DNA of 64,000 nt from Rhynchonema sp. JSB1_4 (Eukaryota > Nematoda > Chromadorea > Monhysterida > Xyalidae), in NCBI GenBank assembly GCA_030248065.1, contig JASAMV010003725.1:1-64000 (forward strand), in the 5' to 3' direction. Position numbers and translations under genes: made by a program. A model generated the notes under the pieces. It was not told the origin of the DNA and ran no database searches. It worked only from the letters and a program-made list of their open reading frames with translations. Shown here piece after piece: positions 15,640-64,000 of the stretch. Within the stretch, counting starts at the first letter, position 1. The number at the start of each line of letters is the position of its first letter.

Positions 15640-18600
15640 GAACGCATCCACGCCAGTGTTTTGCACCTAACCATTCCAACGTGGCGAATTTGAATAAGCA
15701 CGCTCTCGGCGGGATATACATGGCACGCACACTTTAACCAGTTACAACCCTCTCGTCCCGACACAAACCGCCAACGGTAGTCCGATTTCGTCCCGTCCGC
15801 ACGCGATTGTTCTGACGAGAGATGGCCTCCGTTCGCATCCGTGGAATCTTTGCGTTGCGTGCCGGTGCACAGTCTGAAGAAATCAGTAAACTTATACAAG
15901 CAATACGATGGTTACGACCAGATCCACGCCACCGCCGATCTTGCACTCGGTCGCACTCATCGAAACCCACAGTCGACTGATTAACCACAAGCAGCCCTTA
16001 CCGTACATATTCAAAACAGCAGACCAAACCCACACGTTTCCAACCCTACGCATGACCGACAGTCCCGGTGAGACACACACCAAAGTGTGATGCATGAGCC
16101 ACCCTCCCCAAAAAAACCACAACGCCGAACGGCTGGGTCCATTGTCTCTTCCCATCGTCACAGGCCAAGAAAAAAACGCCCACCTTATGTCTCAGACCCC
16201 AATGAACCGGGCCCACGATAACCTTCGATGTCAATACTGCCGCACGCGCCCGCCCCCACACACGCGTTCGCCCTGCCCCGTTTATCTCCGGCGCTGAACC
16301 CGCAACCATCACCGCTTGACATCGCGTTCGAAAATATGGTACCTGTGAACACTCCTGCCTTAGCTGGACTTCGCCACCATCGTGGCCCATGAGGCACAAC
16401 CCGATGCAACCGACCAATACATGTGCGCAACCTGCACACAAGCCGTCACCGAAACAGCCAACAGTACCGATAGTAAAGAACAAGAAAGATCGCCGTATTT
16501 CATCACCCAATTTAAACAGTCCGCACCGCACTGCCGAACCGTCCGTTAATAGGCCTCGTGCATACCGCCGGACGATGAGTCACCCAGCCGCAGCCCCCAT
16601 GGGCACGGAAACCCCATCTAGGCGTACCACCGAACAACGGCCAGACTCACCGACGTCCAGCGCATGACATTGAAAACCAAAACAGTAATGAAATCAAAAT
16701 AGTTCACAATGAAAACTAAAACACCAATGAAATCAAAATAATTCAGAAGCAAACAACAAAGAAAATGGACACAAGTGCGCAATCCTGTACTGTGAAAGAC
16801 CACGAACTCTACACACCGTCCACTCCTCTGACAGACAACAAAACAAAGATGACCAAAAAAACGAGACAGACAACGATCAAAACTGACGTAAATCAGAGCA
16901 GGGACAGTGACAGGTCACAGTTATTTTCGAAAAAAAAACGGAACATCCAACTCCTTCACCACTTTAAAAGATCTCCAACATGTATGCTCGACCAAAACGA
17001 ATTTGAATCAAACTTGGCACGGTCACCGGGTTTGCTGCAAAGTACACACGGCCATGGAATTTTCTCCCATATCAGCTCCATGCCTCAGATCGAACCCTGA
17101 AACGGAAAAAAAATTTCACCCCACCAAACCACCATCCAAACAAAGTACCCACATGCTTCACATCTACCCAATGTGGCGATTGATCACAAGTCTCTCGCAA
17201 ACCCGTTGACTCCAATCTAAGATTACATTCATCCTTTTGCCACCGGCACACCGCATCCTAAGTTGCATAATGTTTCGTCAAAACAAATCTCCATCGCGAA
17301 CGGCACTTATTGGCCCAACACTCACTGCACCAGAACTGACCTGTGTTTTTTTCCTGAACCCAGGGCCCCAATCGCACCCCGCACCAACGTGGCGTTCGAG
17401 CATAAAATCCTTGCCGTGAAGCACAAAAAAATTGACAAAGTGGCTAGCGATCACTGAACGTCGAAATCAGGATTCATTTGATAAAACCCCTATACGGCCA
17501 CTGCCCGACCAACCTAATGAAGCGTGCAAAATAAAAAAAGCATGCACATTAACGTACATAATCACATACTACCCTCGTACCACAACGTCCTGTCACAATG
17601 TTATCCGACGTCTCCGGTGCCCCGTCGTCCCCCAGATACGTTGTAACTGCAACGGGAACTGTGCCCAGCATCAATCAAACCACCGCCCACATCCTGTGAA
17701 ATGTATGCCCCAACCAACGTCATCAAGTCCCAACTGACACTCGGCCGTATCGTCACATGACAGGTAAGGGGCGTACTCACCATTTGCGCGCCGACCGTTG
17801 TCTGCAAGTCGACCCGATATTAACACGACGTTCACATGTTTTCTGGTGCAACAACCAAAAAGAGACCACCAACGGTGCATGTAATGATAGACACAAGTGC
17901 GCATGTACAGGCAGCGATTCGGCCCATTCAATGGAGCGTCGCAACCCAAACCGATAACAGCCAACCCAACGTCCCCGATGGAGGATTCGACAGCGGACTG
18001 TGATTCGCTCTGTAATATTTCCCATCATCGAAACACATGAATCGACATTTGATCCGCACGCACGCCACCCACACTAACTGTTCAAAAGTCGGGCAATGGC
18101 AAATATGCGACCCGGAACATATTTGAATATAAAATCTATAGCAACGCACACGAATCTGATCAACCTCTGCAGCTCACTTCCGCCCGAAAAAAACGCCCCC
18201 ACCCCCAAATTCAAACGCCATCGGTGACACCCCCAACCATATGCGCGTCCCGCCGACAGCATAAATACGCACCGACAATGAGAGCGTCATACAACCGACG
18301 CCACCGCCATGCTGTCCGGTCACCGCCCCATTTTGATGCACGTAATAAACGCATGGCGCCTTGCTGCCACGAACCAGAAGCGGTGACGTATCAGCCGATG
18401 TTTCGACCACCTGTGAACAATGTCAAGCCAGCCTCATACGCAAAACCCGTTCTCCAGTAAACAAAGGTTGAAGGGGCCCCGCCACATATACTGTAAGTAG
18501 TATAGGGCGGGGACCTGTCCCGCAAGGCAGGATCGAAGTCCAGTGTGGTACAAGGCAGGATTGGACTATAGTGGGATGTTTAAGCGTAAGCCTAAGCCTG

Positions 18601-21600
18601 GGCGCGGACCTGTATCGCAAATCCTTCCAGAACATTCTAGGGGTTATGTTTAGGCGTTGGGAATTTCCTCGCTGGTTGATGTTTCAATGGTTACGGTAAA
18701 TACGTATAGTGCTCCGATAACCTATTGTGATGTTTAAACGTAAGCCTCGAACTTGAAACCCTGATTTTCTCTGTTCATGCGTCATTTTTTTTGTGCGTTA
18801 CATTTTATGCGTCGATTATTCTGCGTGGTTTTCTAACACAGAAAGCCCCAACCTCTTGTCCGTCAACCCTGAAAATTTCAACCCAATAGGACCAAGCAGC
18901 TCTGAGTGCGAGAGTGAAATTTTTCGTGAGTCGTGCCCATGTGTATAAGCATAGACGCTCAGACGGCAGGCTGGGTGATGTTTTACCGGAACTATATACA
19001 GGATTGCATGAACGTGTTCATACGCAGTGCTGGCAGGAAACTCGATGTTCCACCGGCACTACAGAGTGTGGTGGGGTGTCTCTCAACACTCAGCCGCATT
19101 TTCTGTGGGGTTACCGTATCACACTGCCCCATCAACAACTGGTTCCAACCGATATTTTTGGATTACCTCCTATGCCTGGAGCTATGAAGCAGTAGGCCTA
19201 GTCATGCCGGCGTGAAACATCAACAAAAGTTTCGTATTCTCTAACGTTAGATTTTTCGATGTTTCGTCAGATCGGAAACACCTGATGTTTCACCGATACT
19301 ACGTATAGAATTGGTGGTTTTTCCCCACCTGTACAAGGTAAAGAGTTACCTATTGGAGGCCATCAACCGGACTCCCTATTTTTGGACCGCCGAACAAATA
19401 AGCTGTGTGTGGTCAGCCACCGAGTTTGTTTGTGACGTGGTGGCTCTCACATCCCACTTATTGCACTTTTGAGTCACGGGGGGTGGAGTCCTCTTTTTTC
19501 AGGCCTAGGTTTGTTTCAGGTTCAGCATCGGTGGCACACATTCCGAAACAGTATAAATAGGAGCGCTTTTCTTCACTTCGTCATTCTTGCAAAATTGCAA
19601 CCTAGTGAACTTTCAAAAATGGAACCAATTATTGAGTTTGGACCTGAGAAAGAACAACGCGTCCGTCGTTTCAACGCAACCGCCCGGGCTTTCACCGTGA
19701 CATTCCGTCATTTGGGTGCTGTGCCTGATGTTCACCAATTCGCCGTCTCGGCCATCAGTAAAACCCTTGATCACGCCTATCGTGACGCCCAGCCTGGTGA
19801 TCTTGTCGGCCTTCAGGTTTCCCATCCCGCCCTGGATCGTCCAATTCTTATCCCGTTTCGTCCAAGAAGCCAACTCCAAGCAGAAGTCATAATTCGCTTC
19901 ATTGAAAGCGCCGTCCAGAGCAACATCAACTTCACGCTGGACGACCGAATGGTTTGGACGGTCAACATTATCCATTCACCAAAAGGCAGTGGACGGAAGA
20001 AACCAATTCCAAGAGGCAACCTCAAAGCCTGGCTGAATTCAAAACGCGGTCATGGAGGAGCTCTCATCACCATAACCAATAGTGACAATCTATGCCTTGC
20101 ACGGTCCCTAGTCACAGCAAAATGTCGCATCCACAAAACAGAAGACCCGCAGCTCTATAGAAGTGTCATCATGGGAGACACCAACAGGCGCACCAAGCAA
20201 AAAAAGCTGGCACTAGAGCTCATGGAACAAGCAGGCCTGAAGGATCATCGCGGCCCCTGTAGTATTCCGGAGTTGAAACTTCTCCACTCAGCTCTTGGAG
20301 CATACCGCATCCGCGTGATTTCCAGTGAGCACATGCTCTCCATCATCTATGAAGAAGGAACCGGCCCGGACATCAATCTTCTCTTGGACAAAGGACACTT
20401 TGAGCCCATCACCTCCCTCCCCTCGTTCTTTGACAACAATTACTTCTGCTACAAGTGCAACAAAGCATACAAGCAAAAGCGGACGCACATCAACTGCGGG
20501 CAACGGTGCACCAAATGTTTCAGCCAGCCACCCTGCGTTCCTGACAAGGAAATCTATTGCAATAACTGCAACCGTCGCTTCGTGAGCAACATCTGTTACG
20601 AAAACCATCTTCTGGAGAAAAGCACCAACATCCCTGGCAGCAACAAGCGCAAAATGTCCTCCACTTGTCAACAGGTGTGGCACTGCAAAGAGTGCTCTCA
20701 GGATGTACATGAGCGTCGTGGCGCTCATCACTGTGGAAAAGTCAAATGTCGGTTCTGCAAACAACACGTGGACTCCACATCTCATCAGTGCTACCTTCAA
20801 CCGCTCAACAACAACACCAAAAAAGCATCCTGTTTCATCTTCTATGATCTGGAAACCATGCAGGACAAGCTGGTGGGCCACACAGGCAATGGTCCCATCT
20901 TTCTACATGAAGTGAATTGCATCTGTGCTGAGAAAGTCTGTGACGTCTGCTATGAATCGGAAAAACCCTGTGGAAATTGTGAGACTAGGGATCATCTCTT
21001 CAAAGGAACAGACGCGGTGGAACAGTTCTGCAACTGGGTGCTCTCCCCCGCCAACAAAGGAGCCATCGTCATCGCCCACAACTCAAAGGGCTTTGATGGG
21101 CAGTTTGTCCTCAAATATCTACACCAACAAGCCATTCAACCCCAAGTCATCCCCAAAGGCCTGGAGCTCTTCAAAATCCACGTTCCATCAACAGGCACAA
21201 CATTCTTGGACAGCCTCAATTTCCTCCCTCTTCCCCTCTCTGCTCTGCCCAAAGCCAAGGGTATACCTGGCTCAAAGGGTACGTTCCCTCATCTGTTCAA
21301 CAAGATGGCCAACTGGGACTACAGCGGGCCTCTGCCTGATCTGAAATACTACGGCCCTGAACAACTCAAGGAGAACGCACGTGAACAGCTGATCCAATGG
21401 CATAAAGAAGAAAGCGCCAAAGGCAAGATCTGGAATTTTCAAGAAGAATTGGTCGGCTACTGCAGGACAGACGTGAGAATTCTGAGGCAAGCGTGCATGA
21501 AATTCCGCGCCTTGATGATGTCTCAACACAACCTGGACCCCTTCACCTCGGCAACTACTATCGCCAGCACCTGCATGGCAGTATTCAAGAAGAACTTCCT

Positions 21601-24600
21601 ACGTCCCAACACCATTGCAGTGATGCCGCATGGAGGGTACAGAGTCAAGGACAGACATTCGGCCATAGCAATCAAGTGGATCAAATGGCTGTCACATTCT
21701 CAAAATCTTCAAATTCAACACGCCATCAATGGAGGAGAAGTTCGGGTCGGCAACTACAAAGTGGACGGCCAGCTTCGCTCAGACCCCAGCCAGGTCTTTG
21801 AGTTCAATGGATGCGCCTATCATGGTTGTTCAGACTGTTTCCCAGATCCTCACACACGCCTGCAAACAGGAGAGAAAGCAGGAGATGCGCTAAAAGCCAC
21901 AGAAGACCGGACTGCAGCATTGGAGGCCCAAGGATACACCGTTACCACAATGTGGGAATGCATGTTCCGTGAGGAATGTAAGCAGGATCCGGAACTATCA
22001 GCGTTCATCAAAGCCGTCAAAGTGCAAGATCCAATGGACCCAAGGGAAGCATTCTTTGGAGGAAGAACCAATTGTCGTTGGATGCACTGGAAGGCCGCAC
22101 CTGAAGAATCCATCCACTACATTGATATCTGTTCCCTTTATCCTTATATTTGTAAATATGGCCGCTTCCCCACCGGACATCCAACGGTTGTGACGGAAAA
22201 CTTCGCTGACATCACCACACGCCCCTATAACGGCCTGATAAAGTGTCTGGTTCTACCTCCTCAAAATCTACTTCATCCTGTTCTGCCCGTGCGTCAGGAC
22301 GGAAAGCTACTGTTTCACCTGTGCGGCTCCTGTGCTGCCGCCCATAACAATGGAGACTGTCCCCATGAACCTGAGGAGAGGGAATTCTGGGGTGCTTGGC
22401 CTACCTGTGAGCTCTATGCTGCTATGGATCGTGGATACGTCGTCAAGGAAATTGCAGAAGTATATCATTATGATCAATGGGAGCAGCATGATCCAACAAC
22501 AGGCACCGGCGGGCTGTTCACTGATTACATCAACTTCTTCCTCAAGATCAAGCAGGAAGCCTCAGGATGGCCCAGCTGGGTGAAGACAGAAGAAGACCAA
22601 GACTCGTACATCAAGCAGTATCAAGAGAAGGAGGGAATTCTACTGGAGAAGAGCAAGGTGGAACGCAATGAAGGACTCAGGATGCTTGCCAAGCTTTGTC
22701 TCAACAGTTTTTGGGGCAAGTTTGGACAGCGGTCAGATCAAACCAAGATGGAGTATGTGAAAGATCCGCAGCGGTTCCTCAAACTGGCCTATGATGACAC
22801 ACTCCAGGTGCAAGGGTTCACCATCGTCAATGACGGCATGCTCATGGTCACCTACCGGGCGTTGGAAGCATTCGTGGAAGAATTGGAGAATTCAAACACC
22901 ACCATCGCTGCCTGGGTAACGGCTCAGGCGCGACTCAAGCTCTATACGTACCTGGAACAGCTTGGTGATCGCGCGCTCTACTTTGACACTGACTCCGTCG
23001 TGTACGTCTCAAGGCCAGGAGACGTGTACCAGCCACCAATTGGAGACTACCTGGGCATGATGACGGATGAACTGGACGGCCACACCATCAAGGAGTTTGT
23101 GACGGCCGGACCAAAGGCATACGCGTACCAGACGGATGACGGAAAGACCAAGATCAAGATCCGGGGACAGACTTTGAATCATTCAGCAAGTGAACAGTTG
23201 AACTTCATCACGTTGAAGGACACGGTTTTGAAATATCTGGAATGTGGTGATTGTGGTGATATTAATGTTGTTGCTCCTAAAATTGTGCGTGAATCTGATC
23301 GTAGCATTGTGACTAAGACGCAGTCCAAGAAGTTCTCTGTTGTTTATGACAAAGCTCGCGTGTTACCTACTGGTCAATGTGTTCCTTTTGGTTACAAATG
23401 TTGATTAGTGTGTCAATGAATCATGCAGCATCTGCCTTTGCACATGGTGCGTGGCTCATTATGTTTATTCTGTGTCAGAGACATGCTGCATCTGCGTAGG
23501 CACATGGGGCGTGGCTCAGAATGTTTATTTTTGTGCTGTGTTATACTCATTTGGTTGTGTTAGTGTTTGGTTCAATAAAAAATGTCGTTCAGAATTGGTT
23601 TAATTGTTTATTATGTAGCTCACACAAAAGAACAAAGAAGTGAAATCCGTGTTTTTTGCCACAACTCCGAGTCACTCAGAATCGACTCACAACAACTCAG
23701 AGTCGACTCACAACAACTCAGAGTCGACTCACAACCACTCAGAGTCATACCTCAAAACACCGAAACAAAGTTGCATGTTAAAGAATAAGGTTATCATACT
23801 AATTCTGTGTTTTCTGACCCAACTCCGAGTCATTCAGAGTCGACTCACAAGAACTTAGAGTCGACTCACAACAACTCAGAGTCGACTCACAAGAACTCAG
23901 AGTCGACTCACAACAACTCAGAGTCGACTCCCAACAACTCAGAGTCGACTCACAACAACTCAGAGTCATACCTCAAAACACCGAAATTTACTTCACATGT
24001 CAAATATTAAGGTTATCATACTAATTCCGTGTTTTCTGACCCAACTCCGAGTCACTCAGAGTCGACTCACAACAACTCAGAGTCGACTCCCAACAACTCA
24101 GAGTCGACTCTCAACAACTCAGAGTCGACTCACAACAACTCAGAGTCGACTCCCAACAACTCAGAGTCGACTCACAACAACTCAGGGTCGACTCCCAACC
24201 ACTCAGAGTCATACCTCAAAACACCGAAACAAAGTTACATGTCAAATATTAAGGTTTTCATACTAATTCCGTGTTTTCTGACCCAACTCCGAGTCACTCA
24301 GAGTCGACTCACAACAACTCAGAGTCGACTCCCAACAACTCAGAGTCGACTCTCAACAACTCAGAGTCGACTCACAACAACTCAGAGTCGACTCCCAACA
24401 ACTCAGAGTCGACTCACAACAACTCAGAGTCGACTCACAACCACTCAGAGTCGTACCTCAAAACACCGAAATTTACTTCACATGTCAAATATTAAGGTTT
24501 TCATACTAATTCCGTGTTTTCTGACCCAACTCCGAGTCACTCACAGTCGACTCACAACAACTCAGAGTCGACTCCCAACAACTCAGAGTCGACTCACAAC

Positions 24601-27600
24601 AACTCAGAGTCATACCTCAAAACACCGAATCTAAAACTAAGTAATCACAACCAACATATCACTCTTCTTCTTTTTCATCCTCAATTGCATTTTCAATCAG
24701 ATCCATATTTTCTTTCAACAGTTTGCGGATGGCAAATCTGTGATCATGCCAAGCCGTGTCCGTCGCCTCATCTTCCGAGAACCCTTCTTCTTGATACTTT
24801 TCATCCATACGATTGATACGCTCATACAGCTCTGCAAACTCAATTCCTCTCACGAACCGAAAGTGACGTTCCACAGCTTCTTGTAACTGGTGTACAAACA
24901 CACCGAGAAGTGGTTCAGAGAGAAAATCTTCAGGACTTTCCACTTTTTCAAAGTTAATGTCCTCCAAAGCCTCTTGAATGGCTTCCCTCCAATATTCTTC
25001 AGAACTGTCTTCCTCCGACTGATCCATTTGCTCTTCCTCTGTAGTCTCACTACGGGTGTCGGACGCCGTGTCCGACTCGTCAATGTCGGATTGTTCCGAG
25101 CTGACGACTGAATCCTTTTCAGAGTCCATCTGGTGCGTTCTTTGATGACGACGAAGGTTCCAAGGACGAGTAAAACTCAAGTTGCACTCAGGACACAAAT
25201 AAGCCATAGTGATGAAATGCCTAAAACGTTACTCCTTATATACTATCTGAAACATCGGCCAGCCATGAAATTCCCACCACCTACACATCACCCCTAGAAT
25301 GTTCTGGAAGCATTTGCGGGACAGATCATCACCCAGGCTTAGGCTTACGCTTAAACATCCCACTATAGTCCAATCCTGCCTTGTACCACACTGGACTCCG
25401 ATCCTGCCTTGCGGGACAGGTCCCCGCCCTATACTACTACTGTATATGCCTCCGAAACCAATCTCAACGCGACTGCACACCGTAAGCCGGCTCAGTAATC
25501 ACTCACACCCAAGAAAATTGTCCCCGTGTCCGCACTTTCTCGAAAATTTATGTGGCTTTGGAAAAACAGCACGAGCTGTGCTAGTTCCCAAAAAAACGCG
25601 AACCGGCCCCGGGGCCGGGGCCGCCCCGTCAGGGGAGGATTTCCACCCAACCCCCCCCCCCAGAACATACCAAACATATCGATATTTTATTTTCAAGGTG
25701 CTGCGGCAGGGCCACACCACCAATCATCTGTGAAACCCCTCGACCAACCTACCGTCGAACCACCAGCCCCCGTGATCGTTGACGCCGATCGACACACATG
25801 TTCACACGCAACCGTGACATCACCATCATCGACCGTGCCGCCGTCATATGACCAACAGGAGCCCATACTGACCAGCAGCGGAAAATGCGTACGCCTGTCG
25901 CTCGCAATGTTCCGGCCAACGCGCTGCAGGACAGGCTGTCTAGACCCTGCCCCGCCTAACGCACGCTCACCGAGACGGGTGGGTAGAGCGCCTTCACCCA
26001 CCACCCCTATAGAACAGTTCCCCCCCCCGGCTGGTACACCAGGTTCTCATGTTTTCGCCAAAAAAAAAACGCATTTGAATCGACTCCCCCCCAAATTCGC
26101 ACAGAACCGCCTCCTGCGCCCCGTATGAGCACAGAAGAATACATTTTCATCAAAACTGTGCACATGAAAACTACCCAACCCGCCCCCCCCGTCGTCCCAC
26201 CGGTGCCCCCCCCCAGGTTGCTCGCGAGGCCATCCCCTCCCGACCTGCTTCGATACACACTCCTAAATACCGAAAACGCATCCAAATACGCAACAACACA
26301 GCGTCGAAGATAGGGGCTCTGAATCGGCCAAGCTGTGGCTCCAAAGAGCCACCACGGTGACGTGCTGCTTGGTTACAGCACAGCCAAAAATACACGCGCC
26401 CCTATGGTTAAGCATAGGAGAATTTTATTTGAGCCACACTGTGAAATATAGTTGGCTCACTAATTTCGACCAGCGTAAAAGTTGTTCATTAGCTGTAGGG
26501 GACAAACTGTTACGCCCGTCGAAATTACTAGGTCAAGTTTTTAAAAAAGTGCGACACAAATAAAAATCTCACGTGTATTAAATTTGGGGGTTCCCTAAAT
26601 TTGTACCTCTTTACAAACACCCGCTTGGCCGTTTCACATCCCTCAATTCCGACGCTGTGAAAAAAAGCCCCAGAATACACCCATCGCCATTGATGGAGTC
26701 GGCCGTAAACCGCAAGCACGGGGCAACATAAGATCATACCCCTCGTGTAGGACAAGTTCTCAAGATTTTTATCCAGAAAACAACATCTACCACCACTAAC
26801 GCACACAATGACCCGCGTCAATCGAGAAAATAACAAACTAATCAGTTAAATAGAACCCCCCCCACCCCACCATGGCCAGATACGTGTCCAGTGTCCCTCG
26901 TAGTGCGTCGCGACTCGGCTGACAAAAAAAAATATCGAGGCGTCCCGTGCAGAATCTTAGGTGCCCCAAAGAAACCCACACAATGGCCCACACCAGACAC
27001 CCACCTGTCAAAACAGCAGTAGCACCACGCGGAAAATTTTCACCGGGAAATTTTTCTGATAACCCAATCTTTCACAAGACGTCGAACGACAGATTTTTCA
27101 TCGCCAGTTCACATCGAAAAAATTCCGCGCGGTCGTCACAGACGAAAAGTTGGACCCATAATGCAAATGACCAAAAAGGTTGACTGCCTCTCATTCAAAA
27201 TCAGGCATCCGCTGTCAGTTTCTTTCGAACATCGTACACCACCTGTCGGCCGTTGGTCTGATTCGTTGCGCGTCACCCAATTGTTCACCCCGTCGGTGCG
27301 TGGACGGATCCAATGAGCCTGTAAGCACTGACAATCAAATGATCCCACCATCGCGACGCATAAAGGTGGCCACCCTACTGTCACGGCATATTCGTGTGAC
27401 ACCTAGATCCACAATTCGGGCCCGAAAAAAAACTTTTTTTTCCGGACAAAAACACAAAAAAACCGGTTTTCCGACGCCCGCAAAAAAAAATACGTTTTTG
27501 TCATTTCGGAATTTTTTCCAAGTCACAACCCTTGGAAAAGACCGGTTCTCCTCCAAAAAGTTTCTCGACACGTGTTCCAGGGTTGCAACACAATGTTCTC

Positions 27601-62334: not shown

Positions 62335-63099
62335 GTAAGTGAGCCAAGTGTGTTTGTTCTGGCTGCTTTCATTTTGGATTGGCCTTCTTTTTTTTTTGAA
62401 ACAGCACGATTTGTTCACGAGAGGCGTGAACATGTTAATTAGGCAACGTGACCGCGTTACACGAATTTCGTTTGTCATGCGTGGCTTGGAGGCCCTGCGC
62501 TGAGCAGTAAGCTGTCGCATGAGCTCGTTTGGGTCTCTTGCAGGCATACCGCATTTGCTGTTGTTTCCTAATTTTTAGCATGTACCTTTCAATATCATGT
62601 CAGTTGCATTTATAACGCGACGGAGGGAGGCCACTGCATCTAAAAAAGCTGCATACACATCAAGGCACATGCAAACCTTTGATTTCGTTCGTTTCATTTC
62701 GTTTTACTTTTCGGTCGTAACCACAAGGCATATGCGCAACATCAATACAATCATTGATAAAATTGATCGCATAACATTTCACTGACAATAAAGTTTTTGT
62801 GATTACTGCAGTTCATTGTCATAATGCAGTACCAGCGGCAAGGCAACCTCTGAGCCTCCGATGTTTCATGTGTGTTATAACAAGGCTCAGGCGCATGCAT
62901 GCTATTGAAAAAAACGTTTGGCACGACCCCAACAACGACCTGCAACGTTGTTTCTCTTATCTCTCTTTTCAATTGTCTCTGTCGGGGAAACAGAGTGCAC
63001 TTTTGCTTCTGGGTGGCACTGATAACCGTAAATACACGTTACTGTAATGCTTTTAACTGTGTCTGTGCAAGAAAAACAATTGAAACTTTTTGTCGAAAA

Positions 63100-63475
63100 A
63101 TGTATCCGAAAGTTCTCCTATTGTGTGTTAGTCTCAGTGTTTGTGGTGGCAGTGACGCCAAAAAGATTCTGATCATTGTGCCGACACTGAGTAGCAGCAA
63201 CATCATGTTCAACGGTCGAGTAGCCAGTCTGCTATCCGATCATGGACACGAAGTGACCTTCTACGCGCCTCACACCAATCCGGACGTGAAAATGCCCACG
63301 TTTGAGCACCCGAACCTGACCAGAACTGTCCAAGTTCCCGCTGTTAAGCCAGAAATTATGCGCGCTCTTTTGGACACCCAGTACGAATTGATGTACAAAG
63401 AAACGTCGATGTTGGAGGCCGAGTCCCGACAGGCGTTCAAGGATCTCGGTGATTTGTTCCACACGGGTTGCGAAG
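63100..63475 (+). CDS. UDP-glycosyltransferase N-terminal exon, second copy
   Basis: The ATG at 63100 opens MYPKVLLLCVSLSVCGG, a likely signal peptide, then KKILIIVPTLSSSN and DHGHEVTFYAPHTNPDV. The exon covers the same part of the protein as both exons of the copy at 61663 but has no intron. It ends in phase 1 at GTCGGT after HTGCEG. The two are tandem paralogues with modest similarity. The remaining exons must lie beyond 63475, perhaps outside the window; the last 500 bases show none. Confidence 0.75.
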
Positions 63476-64000
63476 GTCGGTGCATGCTTATGTGGATTCT
63501 AAGCACGAGGATTTAATGCAAAGCTGAACGGGGGACCTTAGCTTTACCCGAAGTGAACAAAACGCTTATAGTTTTCTCAAATCGTCTGAAAACATGTCCA
63601 TAGTAGTAGTAGTAGCACTTTATTTCGTTTCAGACACGAAAAGGGTAAGCATCAACAACCGCTCGAGGCGTGACAGTAACGATGAATACCTAGGGTTTTA
63701 CAATTTAGCCGGCACCAATTAAATAAAGAGTTGGAGTACATTTGCATGAATATAATAATTCAATTATATAATAATGACAACGTTACGCAACTGACACACA
63801 CAATAATGTTTACGCGCCACACCACAACACGATCTGAACATTATGCAATTTCGACTTTTCTTTCACATACAGTACACCTTCATCGCTGGACACCCATTTA
63901 CAAAATTTTGAAAATTTGGACACAATAATATCAGCAGGCAAACAGTTGTACACATTGGACATCAATACAAGAGGTGAAGAGGACAAGACTGAATATTTGC
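63476..64000. other. Presumed UGT intron, nothing else seen
   Basis: A/T-rich sequence with a short (TAG)n run near 63603-63614. Only short open frames and no family match. Confidence 0.5.

Follow-up and report, generated by a model that had tools for sequence, protein, structure and literature searches.

A two-gene relative of Mavericks in a nematode genome that keeps its own polymerase and may use a borrowed integrase

How can a mobile element persist when it carries an enzyme for copying its DNA and no recognizable enzyme for inserting it? This question is raised by a 6.9-kb Maverick-type element in the nematode Rhynchonema sp. JSB1_4, located in a stretch of 64,000 nucleotides (contig JASAMV010003725.1, positions 1 to 64,000; hereafter the window). 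Mavericks are usually regarded as all-in-one self-copying transposons or viruses. The original prediction, made from the window alone, described instead a distinct minimal lineage, reduced to a polymerase and a zinc-finger protein, that copies its own DNA and either borrows integration or integrates in an unknown way. We find that the element is a member of a real multi-copy minimal family, whose copies are independent insertions with 6-bp duplications, and that its polymerase is under strong purifying selection. Our preferred reading, to which we give a probability of roughly 0.7, is that it belongs to a two-gene family related to Mavericks, which would copy itself by protein-primed synthesis and be inserted by the integrase of full Mavericks.

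The extent of the element was defined by its inverted arms and the flanking ACTGTA:

18490-18495: left target-site duplication ACTGTA, read directly, equal to 25439-25444
18496-25438: element proper, 6,943 bp
18496-18686, plus strand: left terminal inverted repeat, beginning AGTAGTATAGGGCGGGGACC
25248-25438, minus strand: right terminal inverted repeat, pairing with 18496-18686
25439-25444: right target-site duplication ACTGTA, a perfect 6-bp copy of the left one

The arms are 191 nt long, 92% alike and tipped with AGTAGT. An ungapped count gave 175 matches in 191 positions, compared to 50 on average and no more than 72 in 1,000 shuffles of the arms. The ends and the perfect duplication that had been read from the sequence are confirmed. 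The target was a dispersed host repeat. None of the seven aligned related copies of this repeat has the element at the insertion point, the repeat running on across the junction, and five of them have a gap of 4-8 nt beside it; to the left of the repeat, the sequences of the seven copies are unrelated. These copies served in place of an allelic empty site, which was searched for and not found.

Further copies were sought throughout the 204-Mb genome, in which the window's element lies on the contig we call C2272. Polymerase matches at 81-99% identity were found on at least 14 contigs, and complete, stop-free polymerase frames in at least four copies (C2272, C5492, C310 and C145); 37 of 442 candidates were scored, so that these counts are lower bounds. 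The remaining listed copies have stops, deletions or contig ends. The 20-base tip, with up to two mismatches, occurs 53 times genome-wide, compared to 3 times for a reversed control pattern. Pairing inward-facing tips by eye yielded 13 pairs spanning 380-6,943 bp, the window's element being included and the longest. Nine pairs are flanked by perfect 6-bp duplications, two by duplications with one mismatch and two by none (C145, C349); the nine perfect ones represent eight sites, one of them common to C4824 and C5473. The polymerase and zinc-finger genes keep the same order in C5492, C310, C145, C4484 and C1254, as expected from the original prediction if the family were real, and internally deleted copies were found on C4106 and C2873. 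On C145, two tips lie 81 bp apart (153704 and 153785) at the same end of a 6.9-kb copy without a matching duplication, perhaps reflecting a nested or shifted insertion.

The intact frames had been taken to argue against random decay, for which the ratio of nonsynonymous to synonymous substitution rates (dN/dS) is a stronger test. Neutral survival is expected to give a ratio near 1. Among six close copies with long open frames, a choice that leaves out decayed copies and thereby favours low values, polymerase dN/dS was 0.076-0.126 in 15 of 15 pairs, at dS of 0.057-0.262. These values indicate that the polymerase stayed in use during the spread of the family.

Only two open reading frames (ORFs) of the element are conserved between copies, those of the polymerase and of the zinc-finger protein. 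The polymerase gene and its surroundings comprise:

19552-19557, plus strand: TATAAA box, beginning 67 nt upstream of the polymerase ATG; putative function
19619-23404, plus strand: family B polymerase of 1,261 residues, an intact single frame without stops, called from ORF, Pfam, motifs and structure; parts from N to C terminus are a predicted terminal protein, an OTU-like protease (C159, H260), an exonuclease, a Vsr-like nuclease and the palm
23574-23579, plus strand: AATAAA downstream of the polymerase stop; putative function

The frame matches PF03175 (DNA_pol_B_2, protein-primed type) at 6.9e-54 and contains DLE, NSKGFD, YCRTD, DICSLYP, KLCLNSFWG, DTDS and KIRG, which we take to be the exonuclease and polymerase motifs, in agreement with the predicted intact enzyme. 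A profile of this polymerase and 27 homologues matches phi29 polymerase (1.4e-5) as well as Vsr endonuclease structures (5e-4, profile 719-783). In a fold search with the structure predicted for residues 101-1261 (mean predicted local distance difference test score 86, predicted template-modelling score 0.76), phi29 polymerase was the best hit, with TMt of 0.70-0.73 in ranks 1-3, and rank 4 was phi29 polymerase complexed with terminal protein. In Polinton polymerases, a terminal protein, OTU-like protease, exonuclease and palm are reported in one chain (PMC11071308), and by analogy the N-terminal part of the element's polymerase would hold the terminal protein and OTU-like part. C159 and H260 are the same in all 28 aligned sequences; their positions suit the Cys and His of the OTU type, and they are candidate active-site residues. 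A complete replication module is thus probably encoded in the single polymerase gene.

Between exonuclease and palm lies the Vsr-endonuclease-like part (window 21737-21967, residues ~707-783), in which all 28 aligned sequences have D716 and H735. Homing endonuclease insertions have been reported in Polinton polymerases, in passages that do not mention Vsr (PMC11071308). A PADLOC search with the polymerase returned nothing. Viral contigs scanned with the polymerase protein alone gave no match, and with the polymerase alignment two loci at 26-30% identity.

The remainder of the element holds the zinc-finger gene and a repeat array:

23661-24611: array of 21-bp units between the polymerase and zinc-finger genes, in which the palindrome GAGTCGACTC occurs 23 times
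24659-25207, minus strand: C2H2 zinc-finger protein of 182 residues, with one finger and an acidic stretch, adjoining the right end
25235-25242, minus strand: TATATAAG box upstream of the zinc-finger ATG; putative function

The predicted C2H2 gene was recovered as a 182-residue ORF matching zf-C2H2 in Pfam at 2e-7, and the C-terminal half of its product is kept between copies. None of its 43 candidate homologues in the protein collection reached an E value of 1e-3. Its dN/dS is noisy, at 0.14-0.82 in pairs with dS under 0.2 (pairs with dS ≤0.03 or not computable being omitted) and 0.09-0.21 in deep pairs, in which dS is saturated. The protein probably binds or regulates the ends of the element or of a helper, though this role is a guess. 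The palindrome GAGTCGACTC has no copies in the window outside the array; it occurs 2-13 times in ten other close copies, whose loci were read in part, and was found in none of the loci of C1989, C5716, C1269, C3885, C3287 and C2812. An 82-residue ORF at 18939 was rejected as a gene, having stops or broken frames in several copies.

The other standard Maverick genes were not found in the element, in line with the original note. When six ORFs taken from one of the genome's full Mavericks, integrase, P-loop and capsid-like ORFs among them, were compared with the element by tblastn, none matched, and no rve integrase was among the matches listed on C2272 (150 of 231 candidates scored). No protease gene is among the two conserved ORFs, although no search with a protease query was made. 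A Pfam search of three element ORFs, the third of which is not conserved between copies, returned no parvovirus-type helicase or capsid families.

Is the family a lineage of its own? The polymerase of the full Maverick C3287, in which residues 595-732 form one exon, shares 66% identity with the minimal family over this region; nine other Maverick-type polymerases in the genome reach 30-38%, and outside homologues among the matches listed no more than 53%. We built a tree from these 138 residues, which provide few columns, using 116 of 120 listed homologues (208 found) with more than 100 aligned residues and 15 sequences from the genome, and omitting viral-contig row L039 (no match) and one fragment row. 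The minimal family and C3287 formed one clade with support of 98/95. Judged by sequence, the family lies within the Maverick radiation, probably as a satellite, and is not a lineage apart. The predicted minimal family therefore stands as a multi-copy family, but its distinctness does not, given the C3287 clade and the smaller tiers described below. The C3287 polymerase gene (L052, 1-3980) has nine gaps readable by eye as small GT-AG introns, and block edges near residues 332, 595, 733 and 815 recur in other copies. Since at least 11 other Maverick-type polymerases (29-34%) match in one unbroken stretch each, at least seven of them without stops, intron gain in the C3287 line is simpler than loss in the minimal family.

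Candidate helpers exist in the same genome. C3287 carries polymerase blocks, an rve integrase (7e-14), ORFs of 275 and 446 residues and an ORF that appears by eye to have a P-loop; the 275- and 446-residue ORFs are capsid-like on reading, putatively minor and major capsid proteins. The 446-residue ORF has 637 homologues with uninformative names, two of which, taken as a check, scored 25.5 and 24.7 bits against the Pfam double jelly roll-like domain, under the 27-bit cut-off; the C2812 version matches that domain weakly (0.067). A PHROGs search with three C3287 ORFs returned nothing, and direct comparison identified no inverted ends in C3287. Its type of integrase is present in 16 complete copies at 70-100% identity. 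C2812 encodes an integrase (70%, truncated by the contig end) together with the 275-residue (72%) and 446-residue (73%) ORFs, and ends in a tip sharing 20 of 22 bases with that of the window's element, 645 bp beyond an ORF common to C976 and C3287. The C976 tip matches 17 of 20 bases. The full-length relatives sought in the original prediction have at best a near-identical tip and not the whole terminal repeat. Two candidates were dropped: a 109-residue C2812 ORF considered as protease, which has no Pfam match, and a C4662 tip beside an integrase, whose HHCC-type region reads like that of a gypsy retroelement. Inverted duplications occur on the Maverick-related contigs C976, C3538, C462, C3616, C2608 and C3084 and could be replication products, amplification or assembly artefacts.

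Under our preferred reading, the element's linear DNA would be copied by its own polymerase in a protein-primed reaction, the N-terminal part of the enzyme acting, by analogy with relatives, as the protein primer that the OTU-like part would release. AGTAGT would permit a slide-back start of copying; vertebrate Mavericks have (AGT)2 ends with a jumping-back function and 6-bp duplications (PMC8097293). The integrase of full Mavericks would then join the copied DNA to new sites. Such sharing is plausible and, with no integrase match inside the element and the 20/22 tip of C2812, the borrowed integration originally proposed remains the best-supported route. We propose that the polymerase was retained because it acts best on the DNA of its origin, whereas an integrase can be shared.

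Three other explanations were weighed. We think it very unlikely that the element integrates by its own proteins, the polymerase's Vsr-like nuclease, perhaps with the zinc-finger protein, cutting ends or target. The profile match to Vsr structures (5e-4) and the invariance of D716 and H735 fit this idea, but a similar stretch in the polymerase of integrase-bearing C3287 means that it is no marker of integrase-free elements, and 6-bp duplications with (AGT)2 ends are typical of integrase-bearing vertebrate Mavericks (PMC8097293). An endogenous segment of a bidnavirus-type segmented virus, whose capsid and remaining genes would be on separate segments, would agree with the Polinton-type polymerase between inverted repeats known from bidnaviruses (PMC4061559) and with the contigs of ~4.5-7.5 kb on which several top polymerase homologues lie. 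Such an origin is nevertheless improbable: neither of the two conserved ORFs is of a parvovirus family, the element has C159 and H260 intact, in contrast to the active-site replacements reported for the OTU parts of bidnavirids (PMC11071308), and the 6-bp duplications suggest integrase-type insertion. Nor do we give much credence to an ordinary deletion derivative whose polymerase survived by chance in young copies. Internally deleted copies do exist (C4106, C2873), and Maverick consensuses from the Hessian fly, 600-4,500 bp long and with only a polymerase or integrase domain, are called fragmented and inactive (PMC8504770), the nearest precedent that we found. However, dN/dS is 0.076-0.126 at dS ≤0.26 in all 15 pairs, the polymerase and zinc-finger gene occur together in copies at different sites, and the tip recurs in a sister family, C1989, together with a zinc-finger gene at 59%. 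A single, internally deleted copy of a standard Maverick, the case named in advance as refuting, does not fit a multi-copy family with a selected polymerase.

Several observations count against the two-gene satellite as we read it. The polymerase tree is based on 138 residues, and the split from the C3287 polymerase is old (66% over one exon), so that the helper need not belong to the C3287 clade. The whole repeat is not common with full Mavericks, which share the tip plus, in C2812, short inner matches; other full copies have weaker tips (C209 15/20, C3287 less). The other end of C2812 lies beyond the contig, which leaves its duplication unreadable. Two of the 13 end pairs have no duplication (C145, C349), and the C349 pair, which sits in a repeated array, may be a mispairing. 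C3616 carries a fragment of the family polymerase (residues 1-333, 86%) and, at a distance of 3.5-6.2 kb, two decayed integrase fragments (62%) that contain stops, the order being mirrored; all of these may be parts of one element. That the integrase acts on the element's ends is something we infer from sequence, and the terminal-protein function and slide-back are argued by analogy.

Elements smaller still were also found. Relatives of the zinc-finger protein (~45-58%) lie on contigs without the polymerase among the matches listed. C5716 and C1269 are 4.26-kb elements with a zinc-finger gene between long inverted repeats (1,800 bp and 99% alike in C5716), and neither matches the polymerase or the six Maverick ORFs. 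C1269 has the perfect duplication CAACTG and C5716 one with a single mismatch; by eye, the first 33 bases of C5716 are identical to those of C2812. The loci of C5716 (L087), C1269 (L089) and C3885 (L088) have one layout in common: a zinc-finger gene flanked by inverted repeats that reach 1.8 kb and 99% identity, in an element lacking the polymerase. Among the zinc-finger matches listed, none is on the 17 contigs with a C3287-type integrase (16 complete copies and C2812), and C5480 has zinc-finger-like fragments alongside more distant integrases (39% and 32%). Tentatively, and with somewhat more doubt than belief, we consider a layered parasite system in which full Mavericks would supply integrase and perhaps capsids, satellites would have one-gene replication and a zinc-finger gene, a third class only the zinc-finger gene flanked by 1.8-kb repeats and 380-bp elements nothing but ends, the zinc-finger protein being the satellites' tool for using the helper.

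Elsewhere in the window, positions 1-36000 have a steady strand bias (GC skew ~-0.2, AT skew mostly +0.05 to +0.27) that is weaker within the inserted element and stops near 36 kb. The ORF at 62881-63516 reads by eye as UDP-glucuronosyltransferase-like.

No description of a polymerase-keeping Maverick satellite was found in titles and opening abstracts of open-licence literature, though one may still be published. A family with replication and without integration or capsids is a natural separation of the two functions, and opens to test which of the Maverick proteins work in cis and which are shareable. If our reading is true, the satellite-and-helper logic of virophages extends to Mavericks inside one host genome.

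Among known systems, casposons and pipolins are likewise mobile and centred on a family B polymerase; they have their own Cas1 or tyrosine recombinase, whereas we found no integration enzyme in the element. Polintons/Mavericks resemble it in the protein-primed-type polymerase, (AGT)2 ends, inverted repeats and 6-bp duplications, and its polymerase forms a clade with that of full Maverick C3287. It differs in its length of 6.9 kb compared to 15-20 kb (PMC4028283), in the integrase, P-loop and capsid-like genes not found by tblastn with C3287 ORFs, and in a polymerase encoded in one frame, where that of C3287 is cut by nine GT-AG-readable gaps. Bidnaviridae, represented by Bombyx mori bidensovirus, also combine a Polinton-type polymerase with inverted repeats (PMC4061559), whereas in the element no parvovirus-type genes were seen, the OTU-type Cys and His are kept and integration came with 6-bp duplications. 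As a non-autonomous relative of Mavericks, the element shares ends with full copies at the tip (C2812 20/22, C976 17/20) and not over the whole repeat. Its closest parallel in logic is with non-autonomous DNA transposons and miniature inverted-repeat transposable elements, which have ends in common with larger relatives whose enzymes would serve them, and which the 380-bp members resemble here. Unlike these, the element retains a complete replication enzyme under purifying selection.

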